The notes below the pieces were generated by a model. That model was not told where the DNA came from. It saw only the letters and a program-made list of their open reading frames with translations, and did no database searches. A stretch of DNA of 64,000 bases from Candidatus Aegiribacteria sp. MLS_C. Its GTDB lineage: Bacteria; Fermentibacterota; Fermentibacteria; Fermentibacterales; JCC-6. The stretch is from positions 62,001-126,000 of the forward strand of contig LQBI01000001.1 in NCBI GenBank assembly GCA_002030045.1, read 5' to 3'. Made by a program: the position numbers and the translations under genes. Below are positions 16,496 through 17,747 of the stretch, in pieces; positions within the stretch are counted from its first letter, which is position 1, and each line of letters starts with the position of its first letter.

Positions 16496-16582
16496 GCCGG
16501 GGTGGTGGAATTGGCAGACACGCTAGGTTAAGGACCTAGTGGGCAATTGCCTGTACGGGTTCAAGTCCCGTCCCCGGTACCA
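16496..16582 (+). tRNA. tRNA-Leu, anticodon AAG
   Basis: A complete class II tRNA of 87 bases with encoded CCA. The acceptor stem GCCGGGG pairs with CCCCGGT with one G-U pair. The anticodon stem CTAGG/CCTAG encloses the loop TTAAGGA, putting AAG at positions 34-36. The long variable arm (GGGC/GCCT) and T arm (ACGGG/CCCGT) are intact. The loop aligns exactly with that of the second tRNA-Leu in the window, TTTAGGA with anticodon TAG. A34 is rare in bacterial leucine tRNAs and would normally be changed to inosine. Confidence 0.92.
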
Positions 16583-16583
16583 G

Positions 16584-16642
16584 TCTTAAAGAGCAGCAGG
16601 GGGACGGAGGTAATTCCTCCGTCCCCCTGCTGCTCTTTAAGA
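16584..16642 (+). repeat. Perfect 27-base-pair hairpin just after the tRNA
   Basis: The arm at 16584-16610 is an exact reverse complement of 16616-16642, with a TAATT loop. It begins one base after the tRNA CCA end. There is no T-run, so it is not a classic terminator, although such a strong stem could block polymerase or exonuclease. The right arm is part of the longer direct repeat that continues downstream, so this is probably an inverted pair of one extragenic repeat. Confidence 0.93.
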
Positions 16643-16790
16643 TTGGAGTTTTCTTCGAAAACTCCACGTCTGTCTCCGTTGATTCCTCCGTCCCCCCCGA
16701 TCCGTTGATTCCTCCGTCCCCCTGCTGCTCTTTGAGATTGGAGTTTTCTTCGAAAACTCCACGTCTGCTTTACGTTGATCCCTCCGTCCC
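16616..16790. repeat. Extragenic repeat cluster between tRNA-Leu and the GGDEF gene
   Basis: A 57-base block at 16616-16672 recurs at 16711-16767 with one mismatch. Each block contains a small 9-base-pair hairpin (GGAGTTTTC/GAAAACTCC, for example 16645-16665). The 18-base motif CGTTGATTCCTCCGTCCC occurs at 16677-16694 and 16703-16720, and with one change at 16773-16790, where it encodes the C-terminus of the minus-strand GGDEF protein. The pattern resembles REP-type extragenic palindromes. No transposase gene is in the window. Confidence 0.88.
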
Positions 16791-17747
16791 GGTATCCTCC
16801 ATGCAGGTGCGGTTGCGGCCGGAGGTCTTTGCCCGGTACATGGCGGAGTCCGCCCTCTTTATGAGAATGGCCGCAACGTCGTCCGAACGGGCTTCAGCGA
16901 TTCCAAGGGATACGGTAACTGGAGGGAGCTTTCTGCCGTCATCAGTCTCCACGTCCGTGGCCTTGACGTTCTGCCTGATCCTCTCCGCCACTGAAAGACC
17001 GATCTCCTTCGGAATTCCAGTCAGGATCACCAGGAACTCCTCACCGCCGTACCGGGCGCAGAGATCCGTCGGCCGCAGGCAGTCCATGGCTGAGCTGGCC
17101 ACTGAGGCCAGGACGGTGTCACCGGCTTCGTGACCGTATTCGTCGTTGAAGTTCTTGAAGTGGTCCACATCGAACATGACAAGGGTTAACGGAAGACCGC
17201 TCCTCTGGTGACGGTCAAGCAGCCGGGGCAGCCGGCTGTCTATCCAGCGGCGATTCTTGAGGCCGGTTAGCGAATCCAGCAGGGCATCCTTCTCGAACCG
17301 TCTGCGCATTCGCACGTTCCTGGTTATGGCTGCGTCGCTGTGCCTTATCCGCTCGGACAGGATCATGAGCATGTTGCAAGCGAAGGCGTGCGAGAAGGAT
17401 ACCAGGTCCCAGAATGCAGCTTCGCTCAGCTCGAGAACACGGGAAGGTTCACTCGCCACCACGAACGCCGTCGCCGGACTGTCGTCGATGACCGAGAGTT
17501 CGCCCACCGTCTCACCTGCGTCCAGTATAGCCACCGGGGCCCTGTCGGGGCTCTCCAGATGAACGGATAGGGTGCCCGAGAGGATGATGTAGAGTTTCTG
17601 GTTGCTCTGTCCCGCTTTGAGGAGGATCTGTCCCCGTTCCATCTCGATGACCGGGCACTCCGTGAGAAGAGAGATCGCCCTGGCCCCGGAGACTCTCCTG
17701 AGTATGAAGAGATCCTTCAGCTCGCTCTTTGTGACCTCGCGTGTCAT
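16770..17747 (-). CDS. cNMP-binding/GGDEF diguanylate cyclase
   Basis: The 325-residue product joins an N-terminal cyclic-nucleotide-binding-type domain (about residues 20-140, with LSGTLSVHLE and GETVGELSVIDD) to a C-terminal GGDEF domain. The active-site signature is RYGGEEF, and an inhibitory-site RxxD (RPTD) lies five residues before it. The metal-site Asp in MFDVDHFKNFND is also present. It should therefore make cyclic di-GMP with product feedback, controlled by a ligand of the N-terminal domain. The last six residues (TGTEGST) come from an extragenic repeat motif that has replaced the natural end. Confidence 0.9.
   Translation of the reverse strand: MTREVTKSELKDLFILRRVSGARAISLLTECPVIEMERGQILLKAGQSNQKLYIILSGTLSVHLESPDRAPVAILDAGETVGELSVIDDSPATAFVVASEPSRVLELSEAAFWDLVSFSHAFACNMLMILSERIRHSDAAITRNVRMRRRFEKDALLDSLTGLKNRRWIDSRLPRLLDRHQRSGLPLTLVMFDVDHFKNFNDEYGHEAGDTVLASVASSAMDCLRPTDLCARYGGEEFLVILTGIPKEIGLSVAERIRQNVKATDVETDDGRKLPPVTVSLGIAEARSDDVAAILIKRADSAMYRAKTSGRNRTCMEDTGTEGST

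Follow-up and report, generated by a model that had tools for sequence, protein, structure and literature searches.

What gave rise to a perfect hairpin and a cluster of nearly identical repeats one base behind a tRNA-Leu(aag) gene, in a position where the last repeat even forms the end of a convergent gene, and do such structures come from a mobile element or are they primarily selected tRNA trailers? The locus lies in a window of 64,000 nucleotides, that is, the whole stretch of DNA analysed, which corresponds to C1:62001-126000 of its genome (G000; 2.98 Mb in 35 contigs). The original prediction compared the layout with REP-type palindromes mobilised by RAYT (Y1) transposases, and its outline was right: the repeats are real, but they are of the TIR kind and not of the GTAG-REP kind, and they form part of a wider pattern at tRNA genes.

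Structure of the Repeat Cluster

The inverted pair proposed one base past the tRNA CCA was confirmed as a perfect 27-bp hairpin, named H1, with its arms at 16584-16610 and 16616-16642 and with longer inverted arms of 31 nt each (16580-16610 and 16616-16646) that are 97% complementary (Table 1). RNA folding of 16580-16670 gave -71.1 kcal/mol (z = -15.1), and none of 200 shuffles was equally stable. The direct repeat is present, its length being 60 nt at 98% identity instead of the 57 bases proposed, and the 18-base motif thought to occur three times has two exact copies and a third with one mismatch, besides a fourth, related copy of CGTTGATTCCTCCGTCCC contained in the 3' arm of H1. It also proved correct that one copy makes up the C-terminus of the GGDEF protein, given that the ORF ends in ...EDTGTEGST* and that the third half-site, read on the minus strand, covers its last six codons (GTEGST). 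Within the window, TTGATTCCTCCGTCCC was found at 5 sites with up to 3 mismatches vs. 1.04 expected, and 0 of 100 shuffles reached 5. Reading of the sequence found neither GTAG nor CTAC within 16584-16790, and in Rfam the tRNA alone was at or above its gathering score, the miRNA matches below threshold being a reflection of the long perfect stem.

Table 1. Features of the tRNA-Leu(aag) locus, in window positions.
Feature	Positions	Strand	Basis or match
tRNA-Leu(aag) gene, ends in CCA	16496..16582	+	ARAGORN; RF00005 52.5 bits
Hairpin 1 (H1): perfect 27-bp stem, 5-nt loop, starts 1 nt past CCA	16584..16642	+	
Type-1 palindrome GGGGACGGAGG-TAATT-CCTCCGTCCCC, apex of H1	16600..16626	+	G000:C1:78600-78626, 0 mismatches
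Direct repeat copy 1 (half of H1 plus H2), 60 nt	16613..16672	+	
Hairpin 2 (H2) copy 1: GGAGTTTTC-TTC-GAAAACTCC	16645..16665	+	
Type-1 half-site CGTTGATTCCTCCGTCCC, 18 nt, exact	16677..16694	+	
Type-1 half-site CGTTGATTCCTCCGTCCC, 18 nt, second exact copy	16703..16720	+	
Direct repeat copy 2, 60 nt, 98% identical to copy 1	16708..16767	+	
H2 copy 2	16740..16760	+	
Type-1 half-site CGTTGATTCCTCCGTCCC, 18 nt, third copy, 1 mismatch	16773..16790	+	
Convergent gene of a cNMP-binding + GGDEF protein	16770..17747	-	ORF and domain search

Y1 Transposase Genes and Their Terminal Repeats

The genome contains five Y1_Tnp genes, and one of them, a gene of 220 aa on contig C31, lies between inverted GGGGACGGAGG and CCTCCGTCCCC, the former being the core of the window hairpin. 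The proposed link to a Y1_Tnp-family gene thus stood, whereas the GTAG tag of REP-type palindromes is absent. In the C31, or type-1, enzyme, Y1_Tnp is the sole domain (PF01797, 47.8 bits, above the cut-off); HVH and YVEQNP motifs can be read in its sequence, and no C-terminal HTH was detected by the domain search. Compared with TnpA_REP, it scored 58.6 bits in NF047646 (cut-off 80) and E 7e-4 with 4er8. Its best relatives, at 63, 62, and 60% identity, are found in Fermentibacteraceae/Aegiribacteria MAGs, and inverted terminal copies also flank the Y1 genes L387, L389, and L132. Among 80 RAYT loci, the 10-mer core (GGGAC[AG]GAGG, either strand) was near the gene in 7, of which 3 belong to Fermentibacterota.

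The type-1 Y1 gene shares a contig with the tail of the same upstream gene at 7 of 7 loci tested, closely in 6 of them and at about 2 kb in L131, which suggests that the gene was inherited vertically. In G001, complete palindromes (GGGACGGAGGTAATT..AATTACCTCCGTCCC) stand on both sides of the related Y1 gene L387, next to the same gene tail, and the first 15 nt of these palindromes match the window core. With a varied loop, this palindrome also occurs directly behind two tRNAs, Arg(tct) in G001 and Leu(aag) in G011. The window half-sites run on into AATCAACG (minus strand), while the C31 ends run into nATTTTAT instead, and because of this different continuation the C31 gene may not be the one whose enzyme moved the window half-sites.

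A second Y1_Tnp gene, on C33, has exact 29-bp inverted repeats with GGGGTCGTACGTTACTTCGGGTCACTT (type 2), a sequence found at 19 sites of the genome vs. 0 in the control; two of these sites form a pair beside tRNA-Glu(ctc), and another lies singly behind tRNA-Phe. The gene on C35 has inverted TCAGGGACGGACCTAATTTCATCAAGTTA, and of the remaining two, one has no inverted repeat by the same search and the other a 12-bp pair only. Bac_DnaA_C matches in the type-2 and type-3 enzymes (E 2e-4 and 4e-5, respectively) were below Pfam's cut-off.

Type-1 Copies across the Genome

Further copies of the motif, as the original prediction implied, are present: CCTCCGTCCC occurs at 95 sites of the genome vs. 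32 for the reversed control. With up to 2 mismatches, CGTTGATTCCTCCGTCCC has 8 further sites, located on C13, in two C32 clusters, and, in one case, in apparently coding DNA of C35, and type-1 inverted pairs at C2:141110 and C32:126728 represent dispersed non-autonomous copies. The CCTCCGTCCC sites form 14 clusters (two or more sites within 200 bp, grouped by eye), of which the one at C32:62137 looks coding. Five of the clusters start no more than about 25 nt from a tRNA CCA, namely those at Leu-aag (the window), Leu-caa, Lys-ctt, Arg-tct, and Arg-cct, and type-1 sites lie within 20 nt of the CCA at 5 of the 47 tRNAs of this genome; the clusters of the neighbours Lys-ctt and Arg-tct may go back to one event. 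A binomial estimate gave p < 1e-6 for 4 of 13 clusters within 25 nt of a tRNA, under the assumed figure of 10 to 15% intergenic genome. The loose pattern GGGACGN{4,24}CGTCCC, too loose to be discriminating, had 23 matches in the genome vs. 26 in the control, which speaks against a simple excess of such dyads; GGTACCAGTCTTAA, used as a marker, was exact only at two tRNA-Leu loci of this genome, and its one-mismatch matches in relatives were at a tRNA in 0 of 5 loci tested. No conserved target tetranucleotide was evident.

A sixth type-1 cluster stands behind tRNA-Val(tac), past tandem units: at C35:23600-24000 (L055/L126), this gene is followed by about four units of about 45 bp, all of which include a copy of the tRNA 3' end, and then by a type-1/H1-H2 cluster. 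Two more arrangements were observed on C1. At C1:251755-251847 (L107/L027), the loop of a type-2 inverted pair contains a type-1 palindrome. At C1:38353-39519 (L017), inverted type-1 ends similar to those of the C31 transposase enclose an endonuclease I gene (PF04231); this gene may be cargo, or the ends may be two separate repeats.

The Two-Hairpin Module

Two results go past the original prediction, namely a two-hairpin module, H1-H2, and the recurrence of the tRNA 3' position for further tRNAs and further families of repeats. The module follows the pattern GGCTNAA..TTNAGC-TTGG-NAGTTT..AAACTN, with the type-1 palindrome nested in H1. A model built on five copies (R1), with matches counted at E <= 1, found 18 in G000, three of them reverse-strand matches on the same hairpins, and 6 in G006, many being weak; four other genomes had one match each, near E = 1 and probably due to chance. 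H1-H2 stands behind the G000 tRNAs Leu-aag, Leu-caa, Lys, Arg-tct, Val, and Pro-tgg and behind the G006 tRNAs Leu-aag, Val-tac, and Phe, and the tRNA-Leu(aag) trailer of G006 has H1-H2 without type 1. Away from tRNA 3' ends, the module was found in both genomes beside a ligase-like gene (the same gene by eye) and also upstream of a tRNA-Thr cluster. CGTC stands 3' of H2 in the window and at tRNA-Leu(caa), and it is absent from most other copies of the module.

Pairing was counted in 16 hand-picked copies, excluding the G000 Pro and G006 Val elements, with hand-chosen arms that make it partly a product of construction: all six H1 positions are paired in 16 of 16 copies, with both-sided changes at four positions, and positions 1-7 of H2 are paired in 13 to 16 of the 16. 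We also considered H1-H2 as a Y1 terminal repeat, and this was rejected, given that R1 had no convincing match near the 5 Y1 genes of G000 (best E 1.6); nor was there a convincing match in 19 Y1 loci of relatives.

tRNA 3' Flanks in Related Genomes

The set of relatives comprised 20 genomes, G000 and 19 others, 11 of them in the same genus. In 4 of these 11, the type-1 palindrome (up to 3 mismatches) was found at a total of 7 places, and in 3 cases a tRNA gene immediately precedes it. The tRNA genes of four congeners were sampled with ARAGORN (G006 36, G011 32, G005 27, and G001 10), and the Rfam tRNA matches (38, 32, 41, and 41, respectively) mean that G005 and G001 were partly sampled. Fourteen families of terminal repeats, including those from 19 Y1 loci of the same congeners, were searched in the five genomes, and matches were found in 17 of 146 tRNA 3' flanks of at least 60 nt vs. 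1 of 96 5' flanks (p = 0.001), in a test that is partly circular because types 1 and 4 first came to notice at tRNAs and only later at Y1 genes. By genome, the 3' matches were 7/47 in G000, 4/33 in G006, 1/29 in G011, 4/27 in G005, and 1/10 in G001, and G000 alone gave 7/47 vs. 1/47 on the 5' side (p = 0.03), where the sole 5' match appears to be the tail of the cluster of a neighbouring tRNA. All the 3' matches came from four families, types 1, 2, 4, and 6, and the other 10 of the 14 had no tRNA-flank match. Type 4, AGTGCCACCCACCA, forms the ends of the Y1 gene L402 in G005, and type 6, AGGGGACGTACC.., those of L392 in G001; in G005, a 28-nt end of the L392 type lies 22 nt past the CCA of tRNA-Arg(acg) (L385).

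The same tRNA can have different repeats in different species, as in the tRNA-Phe trailers, with type 2 in G000, type 1 with H1-H2 in G006, and type 4 in G005 (the latter spotted in the flank sequence, beyond the mismatch limit of the family count), and in those of tRNA-Arg(cct), with type 1 in G000, type 2 in G006, and type 4 in G005. For tRNA-Leu(aag), a nearly identical gene has four different trailers in four species: the genes of G006, G011, and G005 differ by at most 1 base from that of the window, and the trailers diverge right after the CCA. Since related species carry different repeats of this kind in the same place, tRNA gene ends are suggested to be favoured landing sites.

Other repeats were also seen behind tRNAs. 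The repeat GGTGAGTTTATCCTGAGCGA..CGAGTCGAAGGAA occurs behind tRNA-Lys(ttt) of G000 (L128) and behind tRNAs of G005 (L305, L378, and L383), followed by a second tRNA 3' end, exact over 16, 20, and 19 nt at Lys, Glu, and Ser and seen by eye at Leu-caa, which looks like an insertion with duplication of the tRNA end. The block ATGACTCGCG..GAGTATTCTCCACGGCATCGGGTATTGAATCTC (L301, L380, and L346) was seen in G005 behind two tRNAs, Arg(tct) and Ser(gct), and, in a varied form, in G006 behind Ser(gct).

Comparison with Known Systems

The type-1 repeat resembles the TIR repeats of TIRYTs more than it does the classical GTAG-REPs. In the accessible parts of the published accounts, the TIRYT, or TIRtron, is a Y1 gene flanked by inverted repeats starting GGGG(A/T).. 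(Di Nocera et al. 2013, PMC3733652), with TIR copies dispersed as dimers and clusters (PMC3733652) and a TIR consensus GGGGWSAS (PMC3733652, PMC6006769). The inverted type-1 ends at a Y1 gene and the dispersed dimer and cluster copies agree with this description, whereas GGGGACGG fits 7 of the 8 consensus positions and departs at position 7, thus falling outside the motif, and the type-1 enzyme is short with no C-terminal HTH detected, which sets it apart from the TIRYTs (subclass 2.1). The accessible part of PMC3733652 does not describe clustering at tRNA 3' ends.

With REP/BIME and REPIN elements and their RAYTs, the repeats share a placement at gene 3' ends, where the palindromes form inverted pairs and clusters, and a Y1 gene, here that of type 1, with the same host gene tail as its neighbour across several species, but type 1 lacks the GTAG tag and has far fewer copies than typical REP families. 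The rtT repeats of the E. coli tyrT operon include the tRNA 3' end and, as repeats behind a tRNA, resemble the tRNA-Val(tac) array on C35, whereas the window repeat lacks the tRNA 3' end. In Methanopyrus kandleri, a palindrome about 10 bp downstream of about half of the tRNA genes was proposed to be a processing signal (PMC5217627, accessible part); it is likewise a palindromic motif in a fixed place 3' of many tRNAs, but in an archaeon, as a single motif, and with no transposase linked to it in that part of the source. Our literature search, which covered few subscription papers, did not find RAYT/TIRYT repeats clustered behind tRNA genes.

Origin of the Cluster

We consider it likely that the cluster consists of tandemly amplified, non-autonomous type-1 repeats (GGGGACGGAGG...CCTCCGTCCCC) of a Y1 (HUH) transposase of the RAYT/TIRYT type, lodged within H1 in the tRNA-Leu(aag) trailer, an origin supported by the C31 Y1_Tnp gene because it has inverted GGGGACGGAGG ends. 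The main competitor, to which we give a clearly smaller but real chance, is that the structure is a selected tRNA trailer, acting as a terminator, as a pair of hairpins for 3' processing, or as an insulator that separates convergent genes, and that its transposase-like sequence is incidental or long domesticated. Such a role would fit the tRNA-Leu(aag) hairpin that begins about 10 nt or less past the CCA in 4 of 4 species (by eye) with differing sequence, the pairing of H1 and H2 retained despite sequence change, and the five-T run that follows the type-1 copies at tRNA-Arg(cct) of G000 and tRNA-Arg(tct) of G001. In the window, however, no T-run follows the 27-bp stem of H1, which therefore does not qualify as an intrinsic terminator, and the terminator scan flagged H2 copy 2 and one site within the GGDEF gene only (2 vs. 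0.9 expected); moreover, the module is absent at most tRNAs of the genome, and the same repeats are also found away from tRNAs and at the ends of Y1 genes.

Perfect palindromes can also arise through template switching, and replication slippage together with such switching, with no mobility at all, could have made the adjacent direct repeats, which are 98% alike; we regard this purely local origin as very unlikely, given that the core is found at many separate loci, in other species, and also as the ends of Y1 genes. Hardly any weight is given to the remnant of an integrative element with its attachment site in the tRNA. The 3' ends of tRNAs are commonly used as attachment sites, and this genome does have duplicated tRNA 3' ends elsewhere (at Lys-ttt and Gly-gcc), but no duplicate of the tRNA-Leu 3' end of at least 12 nt is present in the 250 nt downstream, and the attachment-site remnant was rejected at this locus.

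Y1 HUH transposases work on single-stranded DNA and recognise hairpins. Following the preferred transposase-derived origin, the Y1 enzyme would mobilise the type-1 repeats in trans as single-stranded hairpins, and these would be inserted near tRNA 3' ends as a preferred or very well tolerated landing site, perhaps because the DNA there becomes single-stranded during transcription or because a hairpin in that position is harmless or even useful. Tandem duplication with a 95-bp spacing would have extended the array until the end of the convergent GGDEF gene was reached and reshaped, and the resulting hairpins may now serve as trailer or insulator structures. The nesting of type 1 in H1, and within the type-2 pair at C1:251784, hints at insertion into hairpin apices.

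Significance

A more general proposal, which we hold tentatively and with more doubt than belief, is that in this bacterial lineage Y1/HUH transposases send their palindromic non-autonomous elements to tRNA 3' flanks, possibly into hairpin apices, so that unrelated families converge on the same place and the host uses their hairpins as interchangeable trailers. Yeast and Dictyostelium have tRNA-targeting retroelements, and the present pattern, if true, would be their bacterial counterpart. The wider pattern of repeats behind tRNAs deserves a proper census. Several independent families placed a few bases behind tRNAs amount to a natural test of how RAYT-type systems choose their targets, and the same lineage also tests whether selfish palindromes turn into working RNA 3' ends, which addresses the general question of where RAYT-type repeats are placed and why the host retains them.
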